A stretch of DNA of 64,000 nucleotides from assembly GCA_945957605.1 (NCBI GenBank), contig CAMFLR010000004.1, positions 1 to 64,000 on the forward strand, read 5' to 3'. The notes beneath the pieces are model-generated. The model was not told where the DNA came from. It saw only the letters and a list, made by a program, of their open reading frames with translations, and made no database searches. The stretch's first letter is position 1. Each line of letters starts with the position of its first letter. Position numbers and translations under genes: made by a program. This document shows, one piece after another, positions 7,601 through 62,300 of this stretch. Origin of the DNA: an uncultured Isosphaeraceae bacterium. GTDB lineage: Bacteria; Planctomycetota; Planctomycetia; Isosphaerales; Isosphaeraceae.

Positions 7601-8135
7601 CGTTGCCAACCAATCCAACAAGCGTCGGCGCCAAAAATGCGATGAACCCGACGCTCCAGAGAGTCAGCCCGATGACCGCCCAGGGCCACGATCGCGACGG
7701 CGGTATACGTGCGACGGGTGGGTTGTCGAGCCTGGGAACTACGGTGTGCACTGCCGCTTTTTGTGAGGCTGGCGCGGGATTGCGCGGAGAAGGATTGACT
7801 TGAACAACAGTATCGTTGCGGGGACGGTGTTCGCGTACCGAGCGCGCAGGCTTGACTTCTGCGAGTTCGAAACTGCGAGCGCCAGGCACCGACGAAACCA
7901 CCTGCGGTGGAGAGGCGGGTAGCACGGGAATCGACAGGCGAGGGGCTATCAGGGAGACGACGGGCAACGCGATGAGCCCCAAGAGGGAGCAGACCCACAC
8001 GCGGTGTCGAAGCGCCGCGGAAGATCGCCTCAAGAAATGAGTTGTCATCAATGCGGCAGCCAGAAGGATTGTTCCCCGGGCGGTCGCGTCGATCATGAGT
8101 AGGAAGAGGCCATCGGGATGGAAGCTGTCCATCAT
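4626..8135 (-). CDS. M56 (BlaR1/MecR1-like) membrane metalloprotease with carboxypeptidase-regulatory-like repeats
   Basis: The first ~390 residues are an M56 peptidase: hydrophobic segments near 10-30, 48-65 and 152-175, the zinc motif HELAH at 251-255, the downstream acidic motif ECEHACDD near 288, and a last transmembrane segment near 362-380. In place of the penicillin-binding sensor of BlaR1 there are about 780 residues made of repeated carboxypeptidase-regulatory-like (CNA-B-like) folds, recognisable by recurring GRVVD.GNPL, GRFRLDNL and GKPIAGAQL strands. M56 proteins sense an outside signal and cleave a cytoplasmic BlaI-type repressor; the repressor gene sits 1 base upstream. The ATG at 8135 has AAGGGGAA before it; a second ATG follows at 8132. 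The extracellular ligand is unknown; the long repeat arm may be the sensor or a surface anchor. Confidence 0.9.
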   Translation of the reverse strand: MMDSFHPDGLFLLMIDATARGTILLAAALMTTHFLRRSSAALRHRVWVCSLLGLIALPVVSLIAPRLSIPVLPASPPQVVSSVPGARSFELAEVKPARSVREHRPRNDTVVQVNPSPRNPAPASQKAAVHTVVPRLDNPPVARIPPSRSWPWAVIGLTLWSVGFIAFLAPTLVGLVGNELRRVKAKRIATGDLLTLAEELRSQLSLRRPVELRQSRESLIPLTWGVFRPVILLPEASHSWPDARKRTVLLHELAHVERLDTLFQIAGRLATALYWFHPLAWYALHRLRTECEHACDDRVVATGERPADYAEQLLELVRTLRVPRWSVAVALSRRNILEERMIALFDDDRSHLPLNRASGRKLMALSVVVFIGLALIQPRPRAVANPIPSPLATMTADDTPAKTNAADATGRIEGRVVLDNGGAAAAAAEVLLLFPPPNGQEYYTHKFPIRRATTNANGAFVFEGLPAGKYRVWANLGKLTSRPKRSDGATVVLTNPGEAARPLELRLVNGVAVSVVVKDRATERPIPDATVHLTWSDYDADLHTDRDGGVVLQPMRAEEWQVEAWAPGFARESQPINLKNGADAKIEFHLGPGADLEGVVRDAAGKPLAAAGVSASVAGRYQQIAYVESDAHGRYRLPYLPRDVGLQLYVSKSEYVARNVPAQVGGSGVVLDLTLEPRPDGGSIVGVVLDHNGKPISGAELINMGNSTSDTRETKTGQDGRFRLDNLYVDRNFGKEILVKARGTAPKRLKVETGPRDKPAEATITLDAGHRITGRVVDEKGNPLQSVRVYFAHGNHAFSDGGHVDTDKDGRFNFDSLPPNCPFSFVKTGYSEFESRTLELDTNSVITITMKPAGVILGKAVDAKTGRPIPACNVRVTYSSTRQNDEPSVGLLASVSDPGQYFQSADGTFQLADLVVGMPLQVTVSARGYENTLVERVVVAHPDEARADEYKLVPLDPASLRSYRGQLLNTNGKPIAGAQLRLIAATDRTPQNSIGFPFNWSMIESGQIAQQPKITRFLSGVTDKEGQFEFAGVPRKDHVELVWWAKGIAPGRRDQLEKSGDDQPIHVRTSEPARIMGTIDRKVYADNVSIQVTHPGMSLPDITVQLKPGETTFEIGDLAPIDYHVSVMSPPEHVDISGGFTIRPLATEPVSLKPGEVQKISFGKSSSKD

Positions 8136-8136
8136 C

Positions 8137-8529
8137 TCATTTCCCCTTTTTCCGAGCTTGCTGGATCAGCCCTTCCAGGCGTTGGATGTCATCGTCGGTG
8201 AGTTTCGCCACCGAGGGGTGTAGAATCGCCGCGACAGCGTCGGTAGCCGAGCCGGCGAAGAAAGTTTTCATGAGGTGGCTGACCGCCTGGCGCATTGCCG
8301 TATCGCGCGATTGGGACGCACGATAAACATAGCGCGTTCCCTCCTGACGGTGCGTCAGAAACCCTTTTGACTCCAACAGCCGCACCATCGTGCGCACGGC
8401 GGAGTAGCTCGGTGGATCGGGCAGCTTCTCGAGGATTTCAGCGACCGATGCCTCGCCGATTTGATAGACGACGTCCATGATCTGGCGCTCACGAGCGCCC
8501 AGGGCGTCTGGGCTGTTTCGCTTCGGCAT
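8137..8529 (-). CDS. BlaI/MecI/CopY-family transcriptional repressor
   Basis: This 130-residue protein is a penicillinase-repressor-type winged helix: LGARERQIMDVVYQ opens the fold, SYSAVRTMVRLLESKGFLTHRQEGTRYVYRAS is the recognition helix and wing, and the C-terminal helices (MRQAVSHLMKTFF onward) are the dimer and protease-cleavage region of the family. The ATG at 8529 is chosen because GGGGGAA lies 5 bases upstream; the longer frame lacks this. The stop is 1 base from the M56 gene start, so the pair is translated together. Two 16-base palindromes over its predicted promoter suggest autoregulation. By family knowledge it represses the operon until the M56 partner inactivates it. Confidence 0.92.
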   Translation of the reverse strand: MPKRNSPDALGARERQIMDVVYQIGEASVAEILEKLPDPPSYSAVRTMVRLLESKGFLTHRQEGTRYVYRASQSRDTAMRQAVSHLMKTFFAGSATDAVAAILHPSVAKLTDDDIQRLEGLIQQARKKGK

Positions 8530-8576
8530 GCTTCCCCCGTAACCCGGAAGGCGACGAACCAGTCTCATAGGATCAA

Positions 8577-43998: not shown

Positions 43999-46287
43999 CT
44001 ATCCACCGAGAGTGAAGAAAAACGTTGTGCCTTCTCCCTCCGTGGACTCGACCCAGATGCGCCCACCGTGACGCTCCACCACCTTCTTTACAATCGTCAA
44101 TCCTGCGCCTGTTCCACCACCATACATTTCGCGGTTATGCAACCGTTTGAAGATGCGGAAAATTGACTCGTGGTGTTTGGGCGGAATTCCGATGCCGTTG
44201 TCGCGTACGTAAAACACCAAACCGCGGCTCGATTCCGTACCATCATCCACGTGTTCAGGTTCATTGTAGCCGACTTCGACCCATTTTGTCGCCTTTTCGT
44301 TGTACTTGAGCGCATTGCTGATCAAATTGGCGAAAACTTCTCCGACCATGATCGAGTCACAGCGAATGACTGGCAACGGACGCGGCACGCGAAGTTCGGC
44401 GTCTGTTTCCTGAAAACGAGCCTGAAGCGAGTCGCGCACATCGGCGAGCAGGGCGTTCAAATCCCGGTCGCGAGTCACCATCTCCCCACGTCCTGTGCGA
44501 GAGTAATGAAGCAGCGACTCAATGAGCGATTCCATCCGCTCCGAAAGCCGCATCATCGCGCGGAGTTTGGCCTCGCCTGCCGGGTCAAGCTTACCCTCAT
44601 AATCCTCGATCATGAACGCTGCGTAGTTGTGGATGCCTCGAAGCGGTTCTTTGAGGTCGTGGCTCGCGACGTATGCAAATGCATCTAATTCTTCGACCGT
44701 TGCAGCAAGCTCTCGGTTTACGCGGGCGAGTTCCTCTGCATGACCGATGACGACGTCAAGTACGGCGACTCGGAATCGGCGCGCGGCGTCGATTTCAACC
44801 TCTTTCCACGGTGGCGCAGTACCCTCGACCGACTCTTGCCACAGCTCGAACGACTTTCGAGGAGTCAGTCGAGGCCCGTGCGGGCCGATTTCCACCGGCT
44901 TTTCGTAGGGGTAGCCAGCCCAGTTGACCATTTCGATCTGTTCCGGCCGAAACCACATCAAGAGATCGCGCTGACTTCGCGAAATTGGGATCGCGAGCAG
45001 GCCGCAGGCAGAATCCTTGAACTCGCGCGATGGTTCGTACTCGCTCGGTAGCGTGTGCGTGTGGTAACCCAGATCGGGACTGAGCGCCCGGCTGCGGATC
45101 CATGTCGCCAAATCTTCAATCTGGCTGGGATTTGGTGTTTTGCCGGCAGACCAGACGTTTCCGTTTTGAAGCAAAGCGACGCCACCGGCATCGATCAAGT
45201 CGATCAGCGCTGGCTTACCGGCGACGAGATCGTGAAGTGGAGTTCCCACAGCGGCCGCTCGCGTTACCAATGCTTCGTGAACGGAGCGCATGTGGAGGCG
45301 GTACGTCTGATCCTCGCGATCCTCAGCCGCCGCAAGTTGCAATGAAACCACCTGCGCAACGAACTCGCAGGCGACTCTGACGTGGTGCGGAATGTATTTG
45401 GGGGTGTAGTGGTGGGTTGCAATCAGTCCCCAAAGGCGTCCCTCGCGAATCAACGGCATCACAAACGCGGCTGCGACTCCCATGTTCTGAAGGTACTCGG
45501 TGTACATCACCGACGCCCCTCGAAGGCAGCAATAAGTCATGTCGAGCGGCCCGCTGGTGACCGGATTGACGAGCGGCATCAAGTCGGCAGGCTCTGCGCG
45601 AACATCTGGGACCAGCCGATGCCAAAGCTTGAGAAACAACTGGCGGGCGGGAAGCGGAATATCGGCGGCTGGGTAGTGAAGATCGAGGTAGGGGTTCAAG
45701 TCTTCACGTTTGCTTTCGGCAAAGATCCATCCGCTACCGTCAGGCTGGAAGCGGTAGACCATCACGCGATCGAGCCCCGCGAGGTTGCGAACCTCTTCAG
45801 TAACGGCCTGGCAGTATTCACGAAGCGAGGCGCTGTTCTGCAGCCGGGCGACCGTGTGTTTGACGAGAGCGTAGTAGTCGGGGGACGAGGGTGCGATGCC
45901 GCGCGTCGACGGTTCCCATTCGAGTACGGCGATCTCGCCCTGCGTGTGGGCCGTGACATCAAAAGCGGAGCCAACGTTCCTCGCCATTGCCGTCATCGCG
46001 AACAACGGATTTTGTTCGAGTCGCTCAGTTCGAACAAAGTGAGCGAGGTCGCGCGATTGTTCGCGATCGAGCAAGGCGTCGAAACTTTTGCCGAGCAGAT
46101 CATCAGCTCCAACGCCAAGCACGTTTCCGGCGTTGACGCTCGCTTGCACGACGGTGAGATCGGATCGTCGAAGTGCGAGCAAGACACCGTGGGGCAAAAC
46201 GCAGCCGGGGACGTGGATCGGCTCGCGATCACAATTGGTTAGCGTGACTTCACCACTCTTGACGCTGTAAGCCGACGAGCCGTTCAT
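43999..46287 (-). CDS. bphP: Bacteriophytochrome histidine kinase
   Basis: The 762-residue protein has the canonical PAS-GAF-PHY photosensory core and a kinase. Cys19 in TNCDREPIHVPGCVLPHG sits where bacteriophytochromes attach biliverdin. In the GAF domain HYPAADIPLPARQLFL carries the DIP chromophore contact, and the PHY tongue has PRKSF in TPRKSFELWQES. The kinase has the phospho-accepting His in YVASHDLKEPLRG (about 530), an N box (NLISNALKYNE), and G boxes DNGIGIP and GGGTGAGLTIVKK. It should switch between red- and far-red-absorbing states and change autophosphorylation. Its ATG overlaps the haem oxygenase stop by four bases, and AGGAGG precedes it, so both are made together. Confidence 0.95.
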   Translation of the reverse strand: MNGSSAYSVKSGEVTLTNCDREPIHVPGCVLPHGVLLALRRSDLTVVQASVNAGNVLGVGADDLLGKSFDALLDREQSRDLAHFVRTERLEQNPLFAMTAMARNVGSAFDVTAHTQGEIAVLEWEPSTRGIAPSSPDYYALVKHTVARLQNSASLREYCQAVTEEVRNLAGLDRVMVYRFQPDGSGWIFAESKREDLNPYLDLHYPAADIPLPARQLFLKLWHRLVPDVRAEPADLMPLVNPVTSGPLDMTYCCLRGASVMYTEYLQNMGVAAAFVMPLIREGRLWGLIATHHYTPKYIPHHVRVACEFVAQVVSLQLAAAEDREDQTYRLHMRSVHEALVTRAAAVGTPLHDLVAGKPALIDLIDAGGVALLQNGNVWSAGKTPNPSQIEDLATWIRSRALSPDLGYHTHTLPSEYEPSREFKDSACGLLAIPISRSQRDLLMWFRPEQIEMVNWAGYPYEKPVEIGPHGPRLTPRKSFELWQESVEGTAPPWKEVEIDAARRFRVAVLDVVIGHAEELARVNRELAATVEELDAFAYVASHDLKEPLRGIHNYAAFMIEDYEGKLDPAGEAKLRAMMRLSERMESLIESLLHYSRTGRGEMVTRDRDLNALLADVRDSLQARFQETDAELRVPRPLPVIRCDSIMVGEVFANLISNALKYNEKATKWVEVGYNEPEHVDDGTESSRGLVFYVRDNGIGIPPKHHESIFRIFKRLHNREMYGGGTGAGLTIVKKVVERHGGRIWVESTEGEGTTFFFTLGG

Positions 46288-46850
46288 CGATCCTCCTGCT
46301 CACCGGCCAGCCATGTCCCAATCGTCTCGAACGTCTTGCACGCCGATTGCACGACCTCGTCGTCCTCGCCTCGACCTGTGGTGTACTCCGTCAGGAATGC
46401 GCCAAATTCCTTCCACATCGTGCGCACATTCTCGCCGTAACTACCAAAAAACGCCGTCGGCAATGCCAGCCCCTGCAAGCGACGGACGATGACTTGACCG
46501 CCCAGCGTCGCTCCTTCCAACACGTAAATGCATCCCAATGCTTTTGGAACTGAATCGAGTGGCGGTAGGTCGCGACAGAGCGGCAAGGAGTCAATTGCCG
46601 GCTGGCTTTCGCCGAGCGCTTGCAAATCCTGCTCAAGCAACGATGCTTTGCGGCGCAACGGCCAATCAAATCCAATCGTGTTCCATGGAACGGTGAACAG
46701 TGCCAATTCAACTGGCTTGTAGTAGCCGTAAAACCTTTCCAGCAGGCCGAGATACTCCTTTGTAGTCGGGACGCCATTGAGAATTCCGAGAGTTTGCTCG
46801 GCGTTGTCGTGCAAGTACCGTGTGTCGTCTCTCAACCGCGTCAACAGCAT
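46284..46850 (-). CDS. bphO: Biliverdin-producing haem oxygenase
   Basis: The 188-residue protein matches bacterial BphO haem oxygenases: LRDDTRYLHDNAEQT carries the proximal haem-ligand histidine, FYGYYKPVE the next helix, and ALGCIYVLEGATLGGQVIVRRL the distal helix with the GATLGG kink over the haem. It oxidises haem to biliverdin, iron and CO. The ATG at 46850 (GGGAGAA 9 bases before) is chosen over an in-frame TTG two codons upstream. The stop overlaps the phytochrome start as ATGA, so enzyme and apoprotein are translationally coupled: the cell makes its own chromophore together with the receptor. Confidence 0.93.
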   Translation of the reverse strand: MLLTRLRDDTRYLHDNAEQTLGILNGVPTTKEYLGLLERFYGYYKPVELALFTVPWNTIGFDWPLRRKASLLEQDLQALGESQPAIDSLPLCRDLPPLDSVPKALGCIYVLEGATLGGQVIVRRLQGLALPTAFFGSYGENVRTMWKEFGAFLTEYTTGRGEDDEVVQSACKTFETIGTWLAGEQEDR

Positions 46851-46870
46851 CGCCAAATTCTCCCGAACGC

Positions 46871-48403
46871 TTACGAGCGGCGATCTTCGCGGGGGCGAGT
46901 CGCCTTGTCTGCCAAGATCGCTTGAAGAGTTTCGATGTTCGCGGGCTTCGTTAAATGCGCATCGAATCCAGCCTCACTTGCGTTGTCCTGATCTTCCTGC
47001 CTCGCGTAACCAGTGAGCGCCACAAGGTACACATCTTTCAGATTAGGTTCCTGTCGCAGAGCTCGTGCCACGGCGTAGCCATCCATCCCAGGCAGGCCGA
47101 TGTCGCAGAGGACGAGATCCGGGAGTGACCGCCGCGCAACCTCGACGGCATCGAGTCCCGAGCGCACGACATCGACTTCATGTCCCAGCAGGCCGAGAAG
47201 CAGCGTCATGCTTTCGGCAGCGTCTGGATTGTCCTCGACGACAAGAACTCGGCGTTGCGTGTTGCGAGCGACCGATGAGGACGCCGCCTGAGACTTTTCG
47301 GGCGGGCGGCCGTCGAGCGGGAACCGCAGCGTGATTGTGGAACCGAGGCCTGGACCGTCGCTGGCTGCCCGTACTTCACCGCCGTGCAACTCAGTTAGTC
47401 CCTTCACCAACGCCAGGCCAAGCCCAAGGCCGCCTTTGCGCCGTTCCAGGCTGTGGTCGGCCTGGGAAAACGGCTCAAAGACTTCCTTCAAAGTGGTCGC
47501 GTCCATGCCGATGCCATTGTCTTCAATGTTCACCAAGGCATGCGACGTACCGTTGTGTGTGACCTCGACACGCACTTCTCCGCCACGATCTGTGAACTTC
47601 AAGGCATTGTGCAGCAAGTTGCCCACAATTTGCGACAGCCGCGTGCGATCGCCCAGTACCCAGAGTGGCTCGGTAAGTACACGGACGTTGAGAGTCAGAC
47701 CATCCTCGACAAACGTCCCGCGATAATCTTCTGCAGTCTCTCGCACGATTGTGCCGAGGTCGCAACGATTTTTCTCAAGGGGGACTTTCCCCTGCGCAAT
47801 TCGGGTGACATCGAGCAGGTCGTCCACCAATCGAGCAAGATGAGTGGCCTGCCGGTCAATAATATCCCGGGCGGATAACGAGATGGGGTCGGTACCACCG
47901 CGATGCCGCAAAATCTCGACTGCATTTCGGATTGGCGCCAGGGGATTGCGAAGTTCGTGGGCGAGCATCGCCAGGAATTCATCCTTGCGACGATTCGCTT
48001 CCTGAAGCGCCTGCTCGGTCCGTTTCAGACGGAGCAGGGCATTGATCGTGGCGATCAGTTCCAATGGCTCAACCGGATGGCAGAGATAAGCATCTGCGCC
48101 GCTATCAAGCCCCTGAATGCGGTGGCGGGTTTTGGTGAACGTGGCAGACAAGTGTAAAACAGGAATCGACGAGGTTTCGGGGCACTTTTTGATTGAGTGA
48201 CAAACCTCAAACCCGTTCATGTCAGGAAGGTCGACATCGAGAATGACAAGATCTGGGAGGTTTTTAACGTGTCGTAATGTTTCGGCACCATTTTGAGCTT
48301 CGACGACCGCAAATCCCGCTTTTTGCAAGTGACGGCAAACGGCAAAGCGGTTGTCCTCGCTGTCGTCCACGACCAGAATGGTCGCCGGGTTTGGCTCGCT
48401 CAT
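46871..48403 (-). CDS. Hybrid histidine kinase (REC-HisKA-HATPase-REC)
   Basis: The 510-residue cytoplasmic protein starts with a receiver (Asp56 in LVILDVDLPDMNG), then a phosphotransfer helix with His149 in MLAHELRNPLAPI, a HATPase domain (N box NLLHNALKF, DNGIGMD, GGLGLGLALVKGL) and a second receiver (Asp in LVLCDIGLPGMDG near 435). With no sensor of its own, it may be fed through its N-terminal receiver, probably by the phytochrome, and relay to its own C-terminal receiver or to the single-domain regulator. The ATG at 48403 has GGAG 11 bases upstream; a TTG one codon earlier is less likely. It is the first gene of the operon, 20 bases before the haem oxygenase. Confidence 0.92.
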   Translation of the reverse strand: MSEPNPATILVVDDSEDNRFAVCRHLQKAGFAVVEAQNGAETLRHVKNLPDLVILDVDLPDMNGFEVCHSIKKCPETSSIPVLHLSATFTKTRHRIQGLDSGADAYLCHPVEPLELIATINALLRLKRTEQALQEANRRKDEFLAMLAHELRNPLAPIRNAVEILRHRGGTDPISLSARDIIDRQATHLARLVDDLLDVTRIAQGKVPLEKNRCDLGTIVRETAEDYRGTFVEDGLTLNVRVLTEPLWVLGDRTRLSQIVGNLLHNALKFTDRGGEVRVEVTHNGTSHALVNIEDNGIGMDATTLKEVFEPFSQADHSLERRKGGLGLGLALVKGLTELHGGEVRAASDGPGLGSTITLRFPLDGRPPEKSQAASSSVARNTQRRVLVVEDNPDAAESMTLLLGLLGHEVDVVRSGLDAVEVARRSLPDLVLCDIGLPGMDGYAVARALRQEPNLKDVYLVALTGYARQEDQDNASEAGFDAHLTKPANIETLQAILADKATRPREDRRS

Positions 48404-48912
48404 CAACGACTTAGCTCCATGTCAATTGCGTCCGGCCTCCTCGCGTCATGAGACGTCAGGGAGAACAAATTGACACCCCAAATTTGCAAACGGCCTTCAG
48501 GCGCCGGCCCCATCCTGTAGCAAGTATTGTACCGAGAGTCAGGATGGGTTGAAAACCAGCAGCCCGATGGACGCTTCAGGAAGAGCCGGACCGCATGGCG
48601 GCCACCAAGTCCATCAACACGACGATCCGCGGTTCGCAGAAGTGTCCAAGCGAAACGAAACTCGAAGACCGCACGTCTAAACACAAGAATTCAATGTCAG
48701 GATTGCCGCCATTGCGTGATTTTGCGATGTCGATGCATCGAGTTTGTTTCGAAGCAGCCCTTCATAGATCTGTGCGTTGAAATCCCTGTCCTCGCAACTC
48801 GAGAGATGACATTCCCAAAATGCTGCCATTTCAACCAGTAAATTTGTGAGCTTGCGTCAATAGTTGGTCGCCTCAGCCGCTTAGCCTGCGTGCGACGACC
48901 TCGCCACTCGTA
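48404..48912. other. Intergenic region upstream of the light-sensing operon
   Basis: The 509 bases carry the promoter of the operon. An inverted repeat CAAATT-N9-AATTTG at 48466-48486, about 65 bases before the kinase start, could be regulatory. Other frames here are not credible genes. Confidence 0.4.
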
Positions 48913-51900
48913 TTACTTCTGGTCGAGAAGACTCGCAGCTTTCGCAAGTCCTTCGCGGAAGGTGCCGAGAAAGGCGAGCTTCCCCTGGCGATTAATAACT
49001 GCAGCGCTTGGGATCGAGCGGACGCCATAGGCTTCGAAAGTTGCTCCGAAACCGTCGCCGGATTTGTCGATAGCTAGTGGCCAACTGAGGTTCCGCTTCG
49101 AGGCGAAATCAGCAACTTCCTTTAGCGTGCCTGAGCTATCATGCAAGCCGATGATGATGAGCCCCTTGCTGGTGAAATGAGCGGCTGCCTCTCGAACTTC
49201 CGGCAATTGAGAAATGCAGGGGCCACAACCAATCCCCCAGAAGTCGATCAGCACGACCTGTCCGGCAAGTCCTGGCGCAGATGTTTCACCCTTGCTGTCG
49301 AGCCAGATGCGCGGAGAAATCGCCGGTGCGGCCTGGGTCGGCTTGATCGGCGGGACGAACGGCTTGAATCTCTTGGGATGAGCGTCGGCATAGGCGACGA
49401 CATCGGTGATCGGACGCATCGCGAGGCCGCGCTGCGTGTCGATGCGCCCCTCGCGGTAGTCGATGATCAGCGTGCCGGGTGGGGCCCCGATGAGGAAGGA
49501 TTCGGGCGGCACCGGCGCGTTCAGGTCGATCGATTCGATCGTCTTGATCCATATAACGTTGAGACGATCTTTCTGGTAAGTGAAATCTACGCTCAGACCA
49601 GGGGTAATCGCGCCATTCGCCGCGACGCGCGGAGCGAACTGCCAGTATTCCTGCCCCGAGCCGGAACTTGCATGCGACCTCGACTCGTGGAAAACGAATC
49701 CAGTTTCCTCATCGGCGACGATCGTCGTCACATACTCGCCCGACTTAGACTCCAACGTGACCTTGCCTTTGTCTCGGCCAATCACCTTGCCGCCACGAGT
49801 CGGCCAGTGGCAGAAGTCTTCGAGTCCGGCGACCGCGAGTCGAATCCCTGACTTTGGACCGTCATCGCCAATGTCGACCTGCGCATTGACCGGGACGTAG
49901 CTAATCGTCTCGCGGCCATTGTAGACGGTCACTTCGGCAGCCTTTTCCGCTGTGTTTGCCCAGACCACCTCCTGGCGACGCCGAGGACGGTCGACTGCGA
50001 TTTGGAAATTGCCGAGTGAGCCTGGCTCCGCTTCGGGGAAAGTCGCTGCAATAAGTTCGGACAGCGGCGGAACTTTGTCGGTGTCGAGCGATTCAAGGAG
50101 TTTCCGTAGGCGATCGGTCGAAATCGAGTCTCCGCCTTGATAAGTCCGGGTTCCTTGCATGCGACCTTTCTGAATCAAGCGTGCCTGCACCTCCCAGATC
50201 GACCGCAAGTTAAGGCCGACCTCGTCCTCGTCGGCAGGTTTCGCCGTTTCGGCGGTCTTGGTCTTCTTGAGTTCAAATCGGGCGGTGGCCATCTTTCCCG
50301 GTTCAAGCGTGAGAATCGGGCTTACCTTGGTAACGGCTTCGTATCCCCAGGGCAAACGGACTGGGAAGAACTTCCGGCGGCCCGGCTCCATGATCACCTT
50401 GAGTGCGCCGGCGTTATCGGTTGTTGGATGATCGACGAAGGTCGGTTGGCTGTTGAGTGCGACATGGTCGGCGGAAGTGTCGGCGGCCGACTCGAATCCG
50501 ACGCCTGCCAGTGCCTGCTTGCTATCGATATCCACGGCTTCAAGGACTACGCTCGCAGCCGGAGAGAGTTGGAAGTGCAACGGCTCTTCGGCATCGCGAT
50601 CACGAACTCGGATGACTCCGCCAGTCGACGGCAGATAGGCCATGCCAATCGGCGGTTCGATCCGTATCGGATACTGTCCAGGCTGCAGCAACAACGTGCC
50701 AAGGCCCGCTGCATCAGTCGAGGCGTCGGCGCCGGCCCGCTGCAGCTTCTGGGTCTCTGCCAGCAACGAAACCCCCACCGCCGGCCGCCCTGAATCGGCG
50801 AGTGTCACCCTGATCGGCACCTTTCTGGGCAGGACGAAAGTGTGGTTGAGAATGCCGTCGTGCCCCAGGCTCCGGATGCCTTGGAAAGCCAGGTTGGAGG
50901 TGCCAATCATCACTTCAAACGGCTCGAGGGTCGGGTCGCGGTCGATCAAGGTGATGAGCTTCACCTCGCGAGGTAAGCCATCGACCGAGTAGCGCCCGTC
51001 GGCATCGGTGCGTGTCGATCTCATCGATTCCGGCAATGAGACGATGCCGCCGAACTGAAGTTCGTCGCCTCCTGCCGGGTTAATCGCCGAACAATTCCAC
51101 ATTCCCGATCCATCGGGGTTGCGGAGACTGTCGATGTAGCCAAACTGGACTTTCGCGCCCGACATGGGACGCCCCTGATCGTCGATGATTCGGCCATGAA
51201 CTCGCGCGGGCGGGCCGAAAGTCAGGTTGGAGATGATTGGTTCGCCGGCGAATGTCACCAGTTCCGGCGCCGTCTGTTTAAAGTCTGCGGGTTTTGTAGA
51301 GGGGCGATACGACTGGTCTGCGTGCCAGGTGAAGCCGAAGCCCGCGGCGGTGCCGGCAACCTCAAACTTACCCTCGGCGGCTTTGGGAATCGGCCCCGGG
51401 TCGGGCTGGAGCACCGGCAAGGGGAGGTCGCGGAGGATGAATTTGCCATCGGGACCAGAAACGCCCCGGCCGAGGACCGCGGGGTCGCCAGATGGTCGGC
51501 TTCGGTTGGCGTTAGTCACGAAGATCGCAGCCCCCGCGATGGCCCTTCCCTCGCGATCGACGGCCCGTCCCGCGATGGTGATTGGGTGAATCTCGGACTC
51601 AACCGATCCCTGCCGACGCTTCCTCGGCTTCGTCTGGACCTTCACGGCTCCAACCTGCTGCTTCTCGTCCGGACCTTTCGCTTTGGCCTGAACGAGAGCG
51701 GGTTTGACTTCGACATGCTGCCCGGCGAGTCGCTTGAATCCGGTTGAGCCGATACCCAGAACAACTCCCACGGCGATCAAGATCAACGCCGCCTTGCCGA
51801 TTCGAGTCATGAGCCAGCTCCCCATTGTCCGATTCGCCAGGGTTAAAGCAGAACAGGTCCCAACCTGTCGAGTAATCACCTCCGTAGTGATTCTTGACGC

Positions 51901-52572
51901 TGTGTCGATCAGTCTTTGCGGGACGATCAGGCGTTCGAGTTTGCACATGGCGAGAGCGACCGAAGGAGCAACACCTCGACGGGTCAAGCGATCTCGCAAC
52001 CTGACACGAGCTTCAGACAGACGCCCTCGAACCATTCCCGCCGTCCATCGGAGCTGCAAGGCGGCCTCGTCGTAGGTTTTTCCTTCGATGAGGCATAAGA
52101 CGACCGGCAGCCGAAGCTTGTCGGGAAGCCGGAGAATTTCTTCGTCGAGTAGCCACCGAAGGTCTGAACCTCCGGACTCGGGGGCATGCGTCAGCGCGAT
52201 AGCCTGAAGGTTGGGCGACTCGCGGACGTTTCGACGGTCTGACTCAACTCGCGCTCGCGAGGCGACCTTGAAGGCCACACCATGGAGCCACGGGCCCAGA
52301 GCGTTGGGATCGCGGAGCCCACTAGCCTTGCGTGCCAGGATGACGAACGTAGCCTGGAAGGCATCGTCGACATCGTTAGGGTCGCGGAGAAATCGGCGGC
52401 AAACTCCCAGGACGGTGGGGCCGTGACGGTTGACCAATGCCTCGAACGCAGCTCCGTCACCGTGGATGGCGAATCGTTCGAGGATCTGACCATCTTCCTG
52501 CCCGGCGACGGTGCCCCAGTTGAGAAACCGGGTGATCTGACCGACAAATCCGTCGTTTCGACTCTGGGTCAT
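48913..52572 (-). CDS. ECF sigma factor fused to transmembrane, carboxypeptidase-regulatory-like and thioredoxin domains
   Basis: The 1219-residue protein begins as an ECF sigma factor: region 2 at ~33-105 (GAAFEALVNRHGPTVLGVCRRFL, DVDDAFQATFVILARK) and region 4 at ~140-195 (LPDKLRLPVVLCLIEGKTYDEAALQL as helix entry, then GMVRGRLSEARVRLRDRL). A single transmembrane helix at 258-277 follows. After a linker come carboxypeptidase-regulatory-like beta folds (ITIAGRAVDREGRAIAGAAIFV and similar) and a beta-rich middle domain; the last ~150 residues are a TlpA-like thioredoxin with WGIGCGPCISQLPE (CGPC ~1116-1119) and the cis-Pro in RSIPSA. So the sigma part is cytoplasmic and the redox part outside. 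GGGGGAAG precedes the ATG at 52572. The target promoters are not known. Confidence 0.92.
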   Translation of the reverse strand: MTQSRNDGFVGQITRFLNWGTVAGQEDGQILERFAIHGDGAAFEALVNRHGPTVLGVCRRFLRDPNDVDDAFQATFVILARKASGLRDPNALGPWLHGVAFKVASRARVESDRRNVRESPNLQAIALTHAPESGGSDLRWLLDEEILRLPDKLRLPVVLCLIEGKTYDEAALQLRWTAGMVRGRLSEARVRLRDRLTRRGVAPSVALAMCKLERLIVPQRLIDTASRITTEVITRQVGTCSALTLANRTMGSWLMTRIGKAALILIAVGVVLGIGSTGFKRLAGQHVEVKPALVQAKAKGPDEKQQVGAVKVQTKPRKRRQGSVESEIHPITIAGRAVDREGRAIAGAAIFVTNANRSRPSGDPAVLGRGVSGPDGKFILRDLPLPVLQPDPGPIPKAAEGKFEVAGTAAGFGFTWHADQSYRPSTKPADFKQTAPELVTFAGEPIISNLTFGPPARVHGRIIDDQGRPMSGAKVQFGYIDSLRNPDGSGMWNCSAINPAGGDELQFGGIVSLPESMRSTRTDADGRYSVDGLPREVKLITLIDRDPTLEPFEVMIGTSNLAFQGIRSLGHDGILNHTFVLPRKVPIRVTLADSGRPAVGVSLLAETQKLQRAGADASTDAAGLGTLLLQPGQYPIRIEPPIGMAYLPSTGGVIRVRDRDAEEPLHFQLSPAASVVLEAVDIDSKQALAGVGFESAADTSADHVALNSQPTFVDHPTTDNAGALKVIMEPGRRKFFPVRLPWGYEAVTKVSPILTLEPGKMATARFELKKTKTAETAKPADEDEVGLNLRSIWEVQARLIQKGRMQGTRTYQGGDSISTDRLRKLLESLDTDKVPPLSELIAATFPEAEPGSLGNFQIAVDRPRRRQEVVWANTAEKAAEVTVYNGRETISYVPVNAQVDIGDDGPKSGIRLAVAGLEDFCHWPTRGGKVIGRDKGKVTLESKSGEYVTTIVADEETGFVFHESRSHASSGSGQEYWQFAPRVAANGAITPGLSVDFTYQKDRLNVIWIKTIESIDLNAPVPPESFLIGAPPGTLIIDYREGRIDTQRGLAMRPITDVVAYADAHPKRFKPFVPPIKPTQAAPAISPRIWLDSKGETSAPGLAGQVVLIDFWGIGCGPCISQLPEVREAAAHFTSKGLIIIGLHDSSGTLKEVADFASKRNLSWPLAIDKSGDGFGATFEAYGVRSIPSAAVINRQGKLAFLGTFREGLAKAASLLDQK

Positions 52573-52933
52573 CGCAGTCTTCCCCCGATCTCGTGACGTT
52601 CCTCTCATTACTGCACGGTCGAGGGTGGTGCGTCATGACTTTCTCGGCGAATTTTGAGAAAAGGCGCCAACTTGATTAGGGACGGCTGTCTGGTGCTTGC
52701 AACAAGAAAGAGTATAGGAAGACCCCGTGGCACGAGGGGCCTTCGTGGAAGGTCTGCGCTTGGTCGGGTGGTCCCGACTTGAGGGCTCGCGGAATGCCTC
52801 GGTGCCTGGTTGCCGCACTTTTGAGGCTGGACAGATCGCGCAAGTACTTTGGAACTCACACTATTATCTCTTTGAGCGTTTGCGTTGCATCGCGAATAGA
52901 CTTGCCGACTCTTCAAATCCTCATCCAAACCGC
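52573..52933. other. Intergenic region
   Basis: The 361 bases are the upstream region of the sigma-fusion gene, after the end of the YkgJ-like gene on the same strand. Frames here are short and compositionally unlike proteins. No operator or RNA gene is evident. Confidence 0.35.
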
Positions 52934-55123: not shown

Positions 55124-58100
55124 TCATGCGTCCCAATCTTGAAGGCTCGTCAGGAGATCGAGTACCTCCAGACGCTTCTTCTCGAAGAGTGCGAAGACGC
55201 CGAGAATCATCATTCCGCAGAGGATCCCGAATACCCACCAGAGCCAGGTTTGCTTCAGATCCATTGCGGCGTGCCAGATCATCGAGAAAAGCGCAAGGCA
55301 CAAGAAGCCAGTTCCAAGAAAGAGAAAGCCTCGAATCTTCAGGAGGATTCCTGAAAAGATTCCCACGATCGACAATCCTGCGAGTATCACTGGCAGCCAG
55401 GGAGCCTGAGCGATGCCAGTCAGAATCATCTCGGTGGAAGACGATAGGTAGATCGCAACCGACGCGACATATCGGACCGTTGCAAGTTGCTCACGTGTGA
55501 GCTTATCGCGATGCAAGTATGCCGCGGCGAGTACCGACAATGCTCCCGGGATGACCCAGAGCTGCGGATGCTGCGAAAAGCCCAGACCTGGCCACCGGTC
55601 GAGAAGCATCCAAAGCGACGCGTTGTAGGCAAGCGTGGCGAATGCCGCGACGAGCAGAGAAGACCGAAGCGCGGAGACAACGCTGTATAGCAGGCCGATC
55701 AGAAACAGGAATACCACGTCTTCACCAGGTTTGGGCGTGAGCCAGAACGCTGAGATCAGTGGCAAAATGGGTAGAAATACACCCGTATTTTCGAGTGGTT
55801 CGGCAAGGATGAGGCGTTTCTGCCGCCGGAAAAGCTCTCCGAGGCCCACGCCGAGGAACGATATGAGCATCACGATCGGAACCCAGTACTTGACGAAGAA
55901 GTCGCCGAAAAGCCATGGCATCGTCATTTTGAAATGCGCCACGAGCATCGTGATCATGATTTCCGACGCATAGATATAGCCTGTTCGACCTCTTTCTGAG
56001 AGTCCGAGTAGATCTCTTCCGGGAACAAGCGCGGCGATCAATGAGAAGACGATCGAGCCAGCGATCGAAGCGGCCATCAGACCGATCGCGAGCGACGAAA
56101 CCGGCAACGATGCAGATGTTTTGCTCACATACAATTCGAATGTGAAAAAGCCGACCAGACCAACTGCGGCGATAAACATGAGTTGCGGCACAAGCTTCTG
56201 GGCACGTGCGGTCCAGTCGTTTTCTTCTCGTAGGAATTTCGAGAACCAAAATCCGTACAGCCAGGCCATGGCAACAACCACAGTCGCTGCGATCGCAGCC
56301 CGGTCGAGGTAGAAAATGTCCGGGCGTGACGGATCCAGCGGCGACAAGGCCACGACCAGCACTCCCAGAACTCCAAAGATCAACGCCAGCGACTGCACAC
56401 CCGCTCGCCGCTTGCCAACGGCCAGAAGCCCAATCGCTAGCGCCTGCGTAAACGCGGCACCTGCCGCGGTCATCCTCATCAAAGAATTGGGCTCGCTAAA
56501 GACATCGAGAAGTGCGAACAGCAAAACTACCGCGGCGAGGAGAACGTTCGCTGGAACGAGCCAGGTCAGGTTGTTTTGCGCCACGGCCTCTTCGCGGCGA
56601 GGAATTCTCAACCGGTCGAGGCCGGGTCGCAGGCGATCACGAATACACCACAGGAAGCTTGCGGTAAGACCGAGCGCGGCGAGTTCGATGCTCCCCAGCC
56701 AGAGCTGGTACCTTCCGCTAAGCGGCAATGTGCGGATTTCCCAGCCACAAACGGCGATCCCCAGCAAGTAGAGGTCGAACGTGCTGTCTGGAGCCAGGCG
56801 ATCCCAGTAGGTCGGCAGGATGGCCGCGAGGAGCGCGAATATTGTCAGCCATCCAAGCCAGATAGCCGGCGGTTCCGAAGCATTGGCGTTCGCATAGACC
56901 AGGCCAAGTGCGACGTTCGCCGCGAAAAAACCAAGAGCGAGCTGCGAAGCCCACCACTGAAGCGATCGGCCTTTTCCCGGAAGGAGAGTTGGTAACAGCC
57001 GAGAAACAGCCGAGGGAACGGCCGCATCGCGCCGGGCGAGTTTGCGCTCGATCCACAGCCAGACCGGGCAGGGCAGGGCAATGGCGATGATGATCGCGTT
57101 CAGAAGGTCTCCATAGGCAATAATCTCATCCCCCGTGTTGCTCCACGCATTCGACCACTTCCACAAGACAGCCGCACCAGTGGCTGCAAACACTGCGGAA
57201 ACGGGCAAATGCACCAGGTTTCCAGAGACATATGCGAGCAGCCAAAAGGTGATCGCGACAAACAAAACACCGCCCGCGCTCCAGTAGGGGGTGTAAGGAT
57301 CACTGAAGACGCCGCCGATCGCATAAAACGCCACGATGCCCGCTGCCGCCCAACTCCACCCCACAAGCGTGCGTCTCGCTTCTTCACTCACGTCGTGTCT
57401 CGAATTTCGTGCCAGCCAGAGCAAGCCAAGCGGCAGCAACATCGCCGCAATTCCTTGCGTGACGATCATCGTGTGATATGTGAGCCAGTTGCCTGTGTCG
57501 CGCGGAACAATCACCAGCGACGCGAACGCAGCCAGAATCAACGAGAACAGACCAAGGAGATGCGGCGAGTAATTTTGCCGCGTGACGATTCGCAGCAAAG
57601 CAAGGGCGCCAGCGACGATCGCGACGGCCGCCAATCCGCCAAGATCTCCCGCCGAGATGAGCCAGGTGGGAACGACTGGGCTGAACCACAACACGACCGT
57701 TGCTGTCGCGTAAACGATCGTGACGATCGCCACGCCGAGCATGACGAGGAGGTCGACATAGGGATCATCGAAAGTCGTCGGCACGCCTCGGCGTTTTTGT
57801 CGCAAGTGAACGACTGCCATCCAACTTATTGCGCAAATGCCGGCGACAATGGCATTCCACTCGCTCAGCCGGATCGCCATGCCACCGCCAAAGGCAATGC
57901 CTGCCTTCATTGCGAAGATCTGATACGCGGTTGTTATCGCGAGATTGAGCGCAAGTGCCGTGACGAAGCCAAACCGCGACGATCTCTCGCGAATCGCAAA
58001 TCCCAAAACTGCCGCGGCGACGATCAATATTGGCGGCACATATGACGCTTGCGGGCCAATGGTCGCGAACAACCCGGTTGGGTCGGGCCCGACGATTGGA

Positions 58101-61100
58101 TTGCCCTTCAAACTGGCCAGCATACCGTAGACCGATATGGCCAGAATTGGCAGCACTCCGAGGATGGCCACCAGCATTCCCGTCGGCTGCAGCCAGCCGT
58201 TCGCCCCTGGAATTTTCCGCTCTACGAACTCGGTGACTTTGATTTCCCGTGAGATTCCAAAAACCAGCAAAAACGCGAAGCAAATCGCCAGAGCACTCCA
58301 CCAGGATACGAGGAAATCGTTTCCGAATGGATGATTCCAAGCGGCGCTCACAGCGACGTAGCCAACCATCGCCAGCGTACAGCAGGCGTAAAAGCCGACG
58401 TGGAGTGTGAGCACCGATGACATCCATGCCGAATCGCATGATTCGATATTGATTCCGAATCTCACGGCGATACGCCGCAATGGTTCGCGTAACCAGATCA
58501 ACGCGCTGCCGATAAAGAATCCTATGGCGAGACTCCAACGAAGCGCCGAACTCGACGAAACCTGCGATTCCCACGGCGCCGCTGCCAGCAATACTGTTAA
58601 GTTGAAAAGCAGGAGTGCCGCGAGCAATCCCCATCGCCGAACTCGGTTCCACAAGTCGGCCAGGACTGCAAACAACGCCGCGATAATCAATCCCCATGCC
58701 CCAGCGCCATATGCATGAACATGAGAGACGCCGGCGATTTCAAACAACGAGAGTGGCGGAACAATTCGATTCCCTGCCGTTTCGCCAGTCAAAGCTCGTG
58801 AGATGTTTCGTGGAGTGAGTTCCCGCATCACTCCGGGCGCGGCCGCGTAGAGCGAGAGCGCAGTAGCAAGCACAATCAGGGCTGGTCGCATGATGCGGTC
58901 GAACGAATACCACGTTCCCGACAACAGGAGCGTGGGAAGCTGACCGTTGTCGTCGCTCGCTTTTTGCCGTGCGGCGATCGGTCGTAAGCCGCTCCAGAAC
59001 ACGCACAGGACCGCCATGCCAATCCCATCGGCCTGAAGAAACCAGGGATCGAGCAGGAGTTGCGGTGAGTTGGCAAACCAGGCCTGGCCTTCCAAGGCTC
59101 TCGCGATCAGAAGGCCCACTGCATACGCGAGAGCCGCCTGGCCCGCCGAGAAGATGCGAACCGAGATTGCCCGCCATGCGAGGATGAACCAGACTGTTGC
59201 CAGGATGAGGCTATAGACTGCGGCGGAACTGAGTGTATCAAGCCCGGTCGAGGCAACGATGAGTATCGCGGCCAGAATCGAAGAAATGCGAGTACCATCA
59301 TCGATAATTCGCATCACCTGAAAAAGGACGGCATCCCGCGTTTTTCGCCATGCGATCCACAGGGCGATCGAAATCAAACTCGCAAGCACGAGATCGGCCA
59401 GGATGTAGGCGATACCGCTAATATGTGCAATATTGATGATTTCGATATTTCCAATGCACAGGACAAGTCCCAAAAACAGCAAAACTCGGCCGATCCAGCC
59501 CATGATCTGGCAAAGAATTCTTGACGGATCGTTCACCAGAGGATGCCAGCCGAAGAGCACTGCGAAGGTCAAAAGACTCACCGCATCGCACAAGAACACG
59601 TAGGCCGCATCGGTCGCGTTGCGGGGAATGTTGAGCACGTGCCATGAGAGGACAGCTAACGAAATGAAAACGGCCGCCGATCCCACTGCGAAGAAAGATC
59701 GAGCCTCGTCGCGGCGAGCTTTTCGGATGGAGAAATAGGCGAAAGTGAAATACATAATCCCGAATGGCGTCAGAATTTTCCCCGCTGTATTCGACAAAAG
59801 CGCCGACGCCAGTTGTGACTCTGTGACGGACCAGGATATGTGCCCAAGGACGAGTAATGAGATGAGCAAATACGAAACGCCGAGCGCCACGCCGGCGACA
59901 GCATGAGCCCACGCGATATCGAGTCCGATTGCGATGAAAAGCATGCAGATCGCAGTGCCAACGGCGACAGCGAGCATCAGGCTGGGAGACGGCCACGCCG
60001 GAATTGCTCCCGAGAGCATGACCGCGACGCCGATCAGCGCGAGTGCTGTTCCTGCGATCCGCAGTCCAACCGACTCGCGGAGCGTCAGGCGTCGCCAGAT
60101 TGAGAGTCCGGGAATCATGAATGCCGAGCCGGCGACAGGCGTAAGCGCCGTCATGTATTGAACCTGAAGGCCGGCGCGGTGGCCTGCGAAAGCGACGAGT
60201 CCCACTGCCAGAGCCGTCGCAAATCCGCCGAGCCCGAACAGAAGCAGGAGCTGAATGGCGGCTTCGCGGCCCAGGGCGGGTTCCTTTTTGAGAATCAGGA
60301 CTGCCCGGGCCTGTACGATGCAAAGAGAAGCGAGAGGAATTGCCCCGAGTAGTATGAGTGTGATTTCCCTGGGATCCGCTGCCAGCCAGCGGTGAACTAG
60401 CAGCATCGAAATCGAGGGAACAACCACGCCAAACGTCAGCGAAATCGGGCGAACCGCTGTGAGAATCCTTCCTGCGCGATACACAAGAAATCCGAACAGG
60501 AGGCTCGCGAACGATTCGCCTGCCAATTCGAGAATCGATCCAGAAACACCATCAACTCCGAGGGCAGCGATCGCCAGAGAGTTCAGCGGCGTTAGCAACG
60601 TCGCGATGATTAGAAGTCCGGTTGCGCTGTTTGGTAACTTCCAGCGCGAATACGCGACGAGACCCGTGATGTAGATCAGTGCTGTAACGCCGTCGAACAG
60701 TGCAAACTTCAGCAAGGGGCGTTCGGCAATTCTCGACCAGAAACTGAGGACGAGCGCGAGCGAACATCCCACAATCAAAAGGCCGCCGACTAACTCTCCC
60801 CAGCGAAGGTTGCGCTCTTCGAGAAACGCGGAGAAGACCTCAAATACTTCACGTTTAGGTGCGGGCTTCTCGACAGGGCAAAGGCTCGCTTCTGCCGCGT
60901 TGTTGTACGAAAACTCTGAAGACTGGACAACAAATTTGCTCACCTTTTCGGCGGACTTGCGAATAGATTCCGCCGCTGTCGTTTGAGGCGACATCGCGAC
61001 TTCAGAGTCAATGAAAATGATGGGTTCATCGACGTCTGGGACAAATTTCTCGTCGTGGTCCGGGGGATCGTCAAAAACGATCTCGGACGCTGACGAATTG

Positions 61101-61519
61101 GGACCACTTAGCGGTACCAATTGGTCCGCGTGCACCGGCCGCGGTGTCCGCTCTTTTAACGCGGTCGAGATCTCCTTCGAAAACGTTTTCGAGATCAGGC
61201 CAATCCGTTCGAAATGTGCGACGCGGTCGAGTAGATACTGGATGACCTTCCGATGTTCAAAATTGGTTTGTTTGTCGGCCGATGGGGGCAGTCTCGGCTC
61301 CCAGGAGCAGAGCGTACAGCCAAACGAATCGAGTGTTTGGTGCCGATTCGACCAGCTCGCATGGCATCGCGGGCACATCTCGACCTTGAGTGCCCTCGAG
61401 ACCCGTGGTTGAAATGCATTTACCAGAGCCCAATAGGTCGCCTTGATGAGCAACCAAAGCAGGTGCCCAATCAGAGCGAAGAAAAACAGACCGATGAAGA
61501 GGACGATGAAAAATTCCAC
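55124..61519 (-). CDS. Giant polytopic membrane protein (2131 aa)
   Basis: The GTG at 61519 has AAGGAGT 4 bases upstream, the best start in the region; an upstream extension of 41 residues has no site. One hydrophobic helix (FFIVLFIGLFFFALIGHLLWLLI) leads to a zinc-ribbon-like CPRC/CTLC pair (Cys49, Cys52, Cys68, Cys71), then a soluble linker of ~200 residues, and from about residue 260 to the end dozens of hydrophobic segments, such as WGELVGGLLIVGCSLALVL and ATGLLIIATLLTPLNSL. I do not recognise the family; the arrangement resembles large planctomycete membrane proteins of unknown function. No transporter, glycosyltransferase or kinase motif is visible. It is a single gene with its own hairpin terminator. 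Confidence 0.85.
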   Translation of the reverse strand: MEFFIVLFIGLFFFALIGHLLWLLIKATYWALVNAFQPRVSRALKVEMCPRCHASWSNRHQTLDSFGCTLCSWEPRLPPSADKQTNFEHRKVIQYLLDRVAHFERIGLISKTFSKEISTALKERTPRPVHADQLVPLSGPNSSASEIVFDDPPDHDEKFVPDVDEPIIFIDSEVAMSPQTTAAESIRKSAEKVSKFVVQSSEFSYNNAAEASLCPVEKPAPKREVFEVFSAFLEERNLRWGELVGGLLIVGCSLALVLSFWSRIAERPLLKFALFDGVTALIYITGLVAYSRWKLPNSATGLLIIATLLTPLNSLAIAALGVDGVSGSILELAGESFASLLFGFLVYRAGRILTAVRPISLTFGVVVPSISMLLVHRWLAADPREITLILLGAIPLASLCIVQARAVLILKKEPALGREAAIQLLLLFGLGGFATALAVGLVAFAGHRAGLQVQYMTALTPVAGSAFMIPGLSIWRRLTLRESVGLRIAGTALALIGVAVMLSGAIPAWPSPSLMLAVAVGTAICMLFIAIGLDIAWAHAVAGVALGVSYLLISLLVLGHISWSVTESQLASALLSNTAGKILTPFGIMYFTFAYFSIRKARRDEARSFFAVGSAAVFISLAVLSWHVLNIPRNATDAAYVFLCDAVSLLTFAVLFGWHPLVNDPSRILCQIMGWIGRVLLFLGLVLCIGNIEIINIAHISGIAYILADLVLASLISIALWIAWRKTRDAVLFQVMRIIDDGTRISSILAAILIVASTGLDTLSSAAVYSLILATVWFILAWRAISVRIFSAGQAALAYAVGLLIARALEGQAWFANSPQLLLDPWFLQADGIGMAVLCVFWSGLRPIAARQKASDDNGQLPTLLLSGTWYSFDRIMRPALIVLATALSLYAAAPGVMRELTPRNISRALTGETAGNRIVPPLSLFEIAGVSHVHAYGAGAWGLIIAALFAVLADLWNRVRRWGLLAALLLFNLTVLLAAAPWESQVSSSSALRWSLAIGFFIGSALIWLREPLRRIAVRFGINIESCDSAWMSSVLTLHVGFYACCTLAMVGYVAVSAAWNHPFGNDFLVSWWSALAICFAFLLVFGISREIKVTEFVERKIPGANGWLQPTGMLVAILGVLPILAISVYGMLASLKGNPIVGPDPTGLFATIGPQASYVPPILIVAAAVLGFAIRERSSRFGFVTALALNLAITTAYQIFAMKAGIAFGGGMAIRLSEWNAIVAGICAISWMAVVHLRQKRRGVPTTFDDPYVDLLVMLGVAIVTIVYATATVVLWFSPVVPTWLISAGDLGGLAAVAIVAGALALLRIVTRQNYSPHLLGLFSLILAAFASLVIVPRDTGNWLTYHTMIVTQGIAAMLLPLGLLWLARNSRHDVSEEARRTLVGWSWAAAGIVAFYAIGGVFSDPYTPYWSAGGVLFVAITFWLLAYVSGNLVHLPVSAVFAATGAAVLWKWSNAWSNTGDEIIAYGDLLNAIIIAIALPCPVWLWIERKLARRDAAVPSAVSRLLPTLLPGKGRSLQWWASQLALGFFAANVALGLVYANANASEPPAIWLGWLTIFALLAAILPTYWDRLAPDSTFDLYLLGIAVCGWEIRTLPLSGRYQLWLGSIELAALGLTASFLWCIRDRLRPGLDRLRIPRREEAVAQNNLTWLVPANVLLAAVVLLFALLDVFSEPNSLMRMTAAGAAFTQALAIGLLAVGKRRAGVQSLALIFGVLGVLVVALSPLDPSRPDIFYLDRAAIAATVVVAMAWLYGFWFSKFLREENDWTARAQKLVPQLMFIAAVGLVGFFTFELYVSKTSASLPVSSLAIGLMAASIAGSIVFSLIAALVPGRDLLGLSERGRTGYIYASEIMITMLVAHFKMTMPWLFGDFFVKYWVPIVMLISFLGVGLGELFRRQKRLILAEPLENTGVFLPILPLISAFWLTPKPGEDVVFLFLIGLLYSVVSALRSSLLVAAFATLAYNASLWMLLDRWPGLGFSQHPQLWVIPGALSVLAAAYLHRDKLTREQLATVRYVASVAIYLSSSTEMILTGIAQAPWLPVILAGLSIVGIFSGILLKIRGFLFLGTGFLCLALFSMIWHAAMDLKQTWLWWVFGILCGMMILGVFALFEKKRLEVLDLLTSLQDWDA

Positions 61520-62300
61520 GTGCGACTCCTTCGTGCAAGCTAAATTAAAGCCTACACCCAAACCGAACGAGTCACCACAAGCGTTTGATCGAGGTGTGAA
61601 CGAATTTATTATCAATAAGCAATAACACCAGCATTTCGGCACGTGATCTTTTATTCATGTTCTGGGCATGTAGTTTGGGCTCGAGCATTTGGGTCGTAGC
61701 AATTTGAGTTGATTTGGAAGCGCAAAGAGCCACTGGAAATCCAAGTTTAAGCGGTTGTTATAGATCTAATCAAATCTAACAATGGATGGTTGAAATAAAC
61801 ATCGATCGACTCAGCACGTCAGATTCCGTACTCTGCGAATTCAGCCCAAATAGGGCCCCGCGATCGAGGTGTAATTTGAGTTGGGCCCAAGTTGAGCAGT
61901 TTCGCGAGCATGCACTTGGGGATTAGCGAAGCGATTTGGATGGTTCACTTTTTTCGACGTAGCAGGGTGGCTACTGACTGATGGGAATACCCTGTCCAGA
62001 TGTCAGCGCGTGTTTAGGCGTCAACTCAAATCCTGTGTTATCGAGGCCTTAACCGTTTCTCAAAAGATAACTGAAGCCGTGCTGCATGGTCCGAAGTTCC
62101 CAAATGAAATCGCACATCAACGAAATACGCTGATGTGTTTTACGTTCGGTTTGGTCAGGCAGTGAAGCCGTCGTACAGACGCCGAGGCTATTGATTCTGC
62201 CGTGTAGACAGATTGACACTCGATTCATCGCAGACGCAAAGCGACATGGGGACTTGCGCAGATGAATCGTGCTGATTCAAGAGACCTAATTGCAAGCGTT
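61520..62300. other. Long intergenic region with one hairpin
   Basis: These 781 bases separate the giant membrane protein from the HupE/UreJ-like gene on the same strand. CACATCA (62113-62119) and TGATGTG (62131-62137) form a 7-base stem, 160 bases past the HupE stop; it may end that transcript. No credible gene or RNA is seen. Confidence 0.45.

Follow-up and report, generated by a model that had tools for sequence, protein, structure and literature searches.

A sigma factor and a thioredoxin share one intact reading frame

The window analyzed here is a stretch of 64,000 nucleotides, and its minus strand carries one intact frame of 1219 codons (48913 to 52572) that begins with an ATG at 52572 and closes with a stop codon ending at 48913, while the plus strand across the same interval is closed by many stops. 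The sequence GGGGGAAG lies 5' of the ATG, and the closest orthologue, in genome G160, starts at the same point. The 1219-residue product consists of a sigma factor, a transmembrane helix, carboxypeptidase-regulatory-like domains, a LolA-like domain and a TlpA-type thioredoxin, an order established from the frame, Pfam matches and full-length fused orthologues. The first-pass annotation had read this interval as a single frame leading from a sigma factor through a membrane helix and carboxypeptidase-regulatory-like folds into a CGPC thioredoxin. Pfam and hydrophobicity confirmed all of these parts on the minus strand, and the list lacked the predicted LolA-like fold at residues 791 to about 1060.

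Full-length fused copies were found five times in four genomes, namely the window copy, one each in G024 and G005, and two in G126, all from the same planctomycete family. The domain order proposed from the window alone thus recurs in other planctomycetes. Because five copies are intact in four genomes, a frameshift or an assembly join is excluded as the source of the fusion, and no stop separates the sigma and thioredoxin parts. Across the family, 9 of 45 genomes gave a match at 1e-80, partial matches counted, and at the thresholds used there were no matches beyond families f1, f2, f11 and f23. A scan of named genomes, queried with one short thioredoxin motif, returned distant thioredoxins only, and no ORF there joined a sigma factor to a thioredoxin. 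The G160 gene (60% identity) is broken by a DDE_3 transposase inserted inside the LolA-like domain. The apparent splits in G160 and G040, which might be taken for separate genes, are transposase insertions (DDE_3 and IS66, respectively) that lie in the LolA-like part or immediately ahead of it. The conserved fusion falls among ECF sigma factors whose extension carries a membrane helix, a type already known.

Beside the orthologues we found neither a conserved operon partner nor a neighboring anti-sigma gene. Downstream of the fusion gene and in the same orientation, positions 43999 to 48406 (minus strand) encode a bacteriophytochrome histidine kinase, a heme oxygenase and a hybrid response regulator/kinase, likely a complete light-sensing cluster; these genes are not kept next to the orthologues. 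On the other side, a minus-strand frame of 2172 residues with many hydrophobic segments occupies 55124 to 61642.

The sigma head is ECF57-like and is followed by a single membrane helix

Sigma region 2 (residues 46 to 101; 52270 to 52437, minus strand; Pfam Sigma70_r2, 1.1e-8) and sigma region 4 (residues 141 to 192; 51997 to 52152, minus strand; Sigma70_r4_2, 3e-7) lie next to each other, and Pfam and the predicted structure reveal no other sigma regions, which is the composition of an ECF sigma factor. The AlphaFold model of the head (residues 24 to 208) resembles known ECF structures, among them E. coli sigmaE (4lup; Z 11.5, rmsd 1.8, 91 residues aligned). Sigma residues are invariant across the 28 family members, and C58 in region 2 and C160 in region 4 are each kept in 27 of the 28. 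A cysteine in both sigma2 and sigma4 is the hallmark of ECF57, a group of planctomycete sigma factors whose model is WP_015250107.1 of Singulisphaera acidiphila (PMC8999054). Judged by this cysteine pair, the head may be filed as ECF57-like, and the planctomycete source and the long C-terminal extension are shared as well. The extensions differ, since WD40-like repeats are prevalent in ECF57, although in some members only, whereas the window protein has a helix, a LolA-like domain and a thioredoxin. Pfam found no WD40 repeats in the fusion protein, which is not decisive, as they are not a required ECF57 feature.

The genome holds 78 Sigma70_r2 matches, and about 20 proteins share the sigma head of the fusion protein. 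Most of these paralogues have one hydrophobic helix after region 4 and most lack a thioredoxin; their outer parts vary from an HlyD/CusB-type barrel-sandwich (L012) and Poly_export with SLBB (L006) to CarboxypepD_reg (L160), and others have no Pfam match. This variety suggests that the outer modules are interchangeable and that the thioredoxin is but one of them.

The transmembrane helix of the fusion protein spans residues 261 to 279 (51736 to 51792, minus strand; mean Kyte-Doolittle hydrophobicity 2.24) and forms part of a long model helix from 241 to 283. The first-pass annotation had treated loss of this helix in orthologues as evidence against its reading; G160 and the intact fused orthologues have kept a hydrophobic segment at this place, although its sequence is only 22 to 27% identical between genera. 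Linker and stalk are only 13 to 31% identical between genera, versus 42 to 43% for the sigma part. Across the sigma family, lysine and arginine are more frequent before the helix than after it (78 versus 61), a weak trend. Pfam detected no known anti-sigma family in the linker or behind the sigma domains. The fused orthologues do not retain the linker cysteines C210 and C240, and a conserved cleavage motif was not seen in the fusion protein.

The outer half is an exchangeable module with a predicted LolA-like fold

Behind the helix, residues 326 to 790 (50203 to 51597, minus strand) contain three Pfam stretches of carboxypeptidase-regulatory-like domain (CarboxypepD_reg, 1.5e-14), a beta-sandwich type whose homologues are exported free or sit on M56 receptors. 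The next part, from residue 791 to about 1060, has no Pfam, PDB-sequence or sequence-profile match. An AlphaFold model of residues 791 to 1219, built from 15 homologues, reached a mean pLDDT of 89.5, and Foldseek aligned its first half with LolA (4ki3, 2zpc and 7z6w) at 10 to 12% identity, with an E value of 4e-7 for 4ki3; RseB was absent among the 50 fold matches listed. We therefore predict a LolA-like beta-clam here, which together with a joining stretch occupies 49348 to 50202 (minus strand) and is 25 to 35% identical between genera in the fused copies.

Homologues of residues 320 to 1219 also occur without a sigma factor, in families f2, f11 and f23, and most of them begin with a signal peptide or have one hydrophobic segment at the N-terminus. 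Because the free homologues are mostly built in this way, the C-terminal half of the fusion protein is predicted to lie outside the membrane, which supports the earlier view of an ectodomain and a sigma factor in a one-protein path. In G040, the same outer module (42 to 50% identity) sits on a BlaR1-type M56 peptidase head with a BlaI-type repressor gene adjoining, and IS66 interrupts the gene. The window genome likewise encodes an M56 protein (L005) with a related CarboxypepD_reg part and an adjoining BlaI-type gene. Pfam shows no M56 peptidase head on the fusion protein itself, whereas the sister ectodomain L058 carries one.

A maximum-likelihood tree built on the CarboxypepD_reg part joins the proteins of the window and of G160 with the M56 protein of G040 (support 100/98), and it pairs the sigma-fused L034 with the M56 protein L005 (97/89). 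On this outer module, sigma and M56 heads have thus apparently been swapped at least twice, which speaks for the outer part as an input module. Since the same ectodomain class is found free and on an M56 receptor as well as fused to a sigma factor, its sequence relationships mark the outer half as an exchangeable module.

A second BlaI/BlaR1-type pair lies in the window at 4629 to 8568 (minus strand), where an M56 peptidase of 1169 residues with six CarboxypepD_reg stretches has a Penicillinase_R gene just upstream.

The thioredoxin is probably kept as an enzyme, with redox sensing less favored

The C-terminal domain (residues 1076 to 1219; 48916 to 49347, minus strand) matches Pfam Redoxin/AhpC-TSA at residues 1095 to 1202 (3e-10), and its CGPC motif occupies residues 1116 to 1119 (49216 to 49227, minus strand). 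Foldseek placed the second half of the model with thiol-disulfide oxidoreductases of the ResA type, the alignments being to 4nmu (Z 18.8, rmsd 2.0, 134 residues aligned) and to ResA 2h1b (Z 18.1, rmsd 2.0, 131 residues aligned). Together with the predicted thioredoxin fold, the CxxC and the cis-proline (RSIP) place the domain with ResA/TlpA; a viral fold library returned generic thioredoxins only. Between genera, this is the best conserved part of the fused copies (53 to 58% identity), and CxxC is kept in four of the five intact copies, three times as CGPC and once as CGFC. These patterns indicate that the domain is under selection, probably as an enzyme.

Such conservation would be in line with a relay in which the activity of the sigma factor is set by the disulfide state of CGPC on the outer side as its signal, although it would fit equally an enzyme whose redox state goes unread. 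Several observations speak against the relay. In the second fused copy of G126 (L078), both cysteines and the cis-proline are gone, and the thioredoxin domain there, alone among the copies, has fallen to 33% identity; the free homologues L060, L061 and L067 have also lost CxxC. CGPC also lies some 800 residues away from the helix. Moreover, the ectodomain cysteine C494 is common but not invariant (tryptophan in the fused L032) and C921 varies, so CGPC has no obligatory internal disulfide partner. Given L078 and the sigma-TM paralogues, most of which have no thioredoxin to read, redox as the signal is possible but not favored, and we regard it as unlikely. For the sigma family as a whole, redox state cannot serve as the general input. 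Of the earlier proposal that disulfide state or cargo outside the membrane sets the sigma factor, the disulfide part is not supported as it stood, and binding of cargo or a lipid to the LolA-like domain would be no less plausible an input than redox.

A unique element precedes the fusion gene

Comparison of the 400 bases 5' of the start codon between the window and G160 gave one clear common block, whose best local alignment score was 42 against a maximum of 26 in 200 shuffles. The block contains the promoter-like element AAGTCATGAC-N16-TGCAGTA (52609 to 52641, minus strand), which occurs once in the 8.8-Mb genome and once in G160, both times 5' of the fusion gene, while the backward control gave no occurrence. 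Its uniqueness and its position directly before the fusion gene suggest self-activation, and with the two sequences at hand we infer that it may be a gene-specific promoter that the sigma factor uses for itself.

An EM motif search upstream of 37 sigma-TM genes recovered an A-rich block, TTTC-NN-GAAAAAGT, about 65 to 100 bp before the start, which scored above shuffles and was enriched across genomes (p 2.5e-6, with controls that include coding DNA). It is often followed by GTGCAGTA or TACACTA, but the search recovered no accompanying −10 block. Because of this, and because the controls contain coding DNA, we do not rely on it as a family-wide promoter.

A membrane-held sigma factor may be released by proteolysis

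Taken together, the fusion protein can be read as a single-chain transmembrane sigma factor of ECF57-like type, which would be freed proteolytically once the ectodomain changes and would then activate its own gene. We consider this reading, with its inferred proteolysis, signal and self-activation, to have about an even chance of being correct; a linker with no recognizable anti-sigma domain, the lack of a conserved neighboring gene and a promoter-like element seen in two sequences weigh against it. At rest, the sigma head would be held at the membrane. Binding of a lipid, a lipoprotein or unfolded cargo in the LolA-like cavity would alter the ectodomain; alternatively or additionally, the redox state or the substrate of the thioredoxin could act as the trigger. 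In this altered state, the stalk would be open to a site-1 protease; a site-2 protease of the M50 type would then free the head, and the freed head would activate mainly its own gene from the element at 52609 to 52641. The outer module would thus be worker and receptor in one, with its own state setting its own supply. The genome does encode M50 proteases (one with a frame of 686 residues) and one DsbD-type protein, but M50 proteases occur in 14 of 14 control genomes, and being nearly universal, their presence proves little for release.

Known systems provide the closest analogies. ECF52, represented by SCO4117 of Streptomyces coelicolor, likewise places a sigma factor, a membrane helix and an extracytoplasmic binding domain on one chain, and its proteolytic release has been proposed (PMC5826349). 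However, ECF52 is actinobacterial; an anti-sigma domain of the zinc-finger type lies ahead of its helix, and its outer domain is carbohydrate-binding. Neither domain was found here, and Pfam gave no zinc-finger match between sigma4 and the helix. IutY of Pseudomonas putida (ECF243) is also fused to a membrane-spanning C-terminal part and is released by Prc and RseP; according to the review, it is the only fused ECF sigma factor whose proteolytic release has been characterized experimentally (PMC8999054). Unlike the window protein, in which no anti-sigma part was found, IutY has one and receives its signal from siderophore cell-surface signaling. RseB and MucB, LolA-fold proteins that sense lipids upstream of sigmaE/AlgU (PMC7400510, PMC6363788), similarly take part, from beyond the membrane, in an ECF sigma pathway, but each is a protein of its own that acts on an anti-sigma factor, whereas here the LolA-like domain belongs to the sigma chain; no sequence match was found. 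The BlaR1/BlaI-type receptors share the ectodomain class, and the BlaI-type genes adjoining the M56 genes of L005 and G040 place it on a head type that acts by proteolysis, although the head in the window is a sigma factor and not a repressor-removing protease. By analogy, the outer module on sigma and M56 heads and the likeness to IutY and ECF52 lead us to propose release by proteolysis.

The first-pass annotation had argued that a tethered sigma factor needs release, which holds up unless the protein is active while tethered. ToxR and CadC work in the membrane-tethered state, and an ectodomain that alters clustering or conformation could act in the same way without proteolysis. Neither an anti-sigma domain nor a conserved cleavage motif was seen, and the continuous helix of the model could pass on a change. 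Against this, a sigma factor must work with core polymerase at many promoters, and IutY, a known fused membrane sigma factor, is activated by cleavage and in truncated form is active without a signal (PMC8999054), so we hold tethered activity to be rather improbable.

Still less probable is that domain shuffling left the sigma head behind as an idle remnant, a mere N-terminal anchor of an exported enzyme. The outer modules (HlyD, SLBB/Poly_export, thioredoxin) do resemble working proteins more than sensors, and no cognate operons were seen beside the HlyD- and SLBB-bearing paralogues, but the invariant sigma residues, the better conservation of the sigma part than of the LolA-like domain, and the unique conserved element upstream are not what an idle anchor would lead one to expect. 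That the whole protein is cytoplasmic, with the thioredoxin acting on the C58/C160 pair, is hardly credible: the pair is nearly universal in the family and a link between the two cysteines has been proposed for ECF57 (PMC8999054), yet it is equally conserved in paralogues without a thioredoxin, the free outer-half homologues are exported, and a hydrophobic helix separates the sigma head from the thioredoxin.

Large planctomycete genomes hold dozens of extended ECF sigma factors. The outer module occurs by itself, fused to a membrane sigma factor and attached to a BlaR1-type receptor, which makes the family readable as a set of interchangeable receptors, each of one protein. The unique element before the gene offers a concrete target promoter for testing that reading. 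The module exchange and the proposed one-gene loop are of more interest than the thioredoxin itself. More speculatively, and in our estimate probably not the case, this could be a general planctomycete device, in which an exported working module, here the LolA-like domain with the thioredoxin, is linked by one helix to a dedicated sigma factor with a regulon that is essentially its own gene, the module can be swapped to a BlaR1-type head, and the outer enzyme's redox state or cargo directly sets the synthesis of that enzyme.

Related sigma-TM loci

Further sigma-TM genes were noted outside the window. On contig C23 of G000, L163 (6854 to 8554) encodes a sigma-TM protein with an outer HlyD/CusB membrane-fusion domain, next to which a transporter operon is not obvious. 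On contig C1 of the same genome, L164 (5577 to 10709) holds two convergent sigma-TM genes within about 5 kb, one with CarboxypepD_reg and one with Poly_export/SLBB. In uncultured Poribacteria, large sigma-containing frames near thioredoxin genes (L147, 5359 to 8361; L158, 2258 to 3838) match the planctomycete sigma-TM profile.
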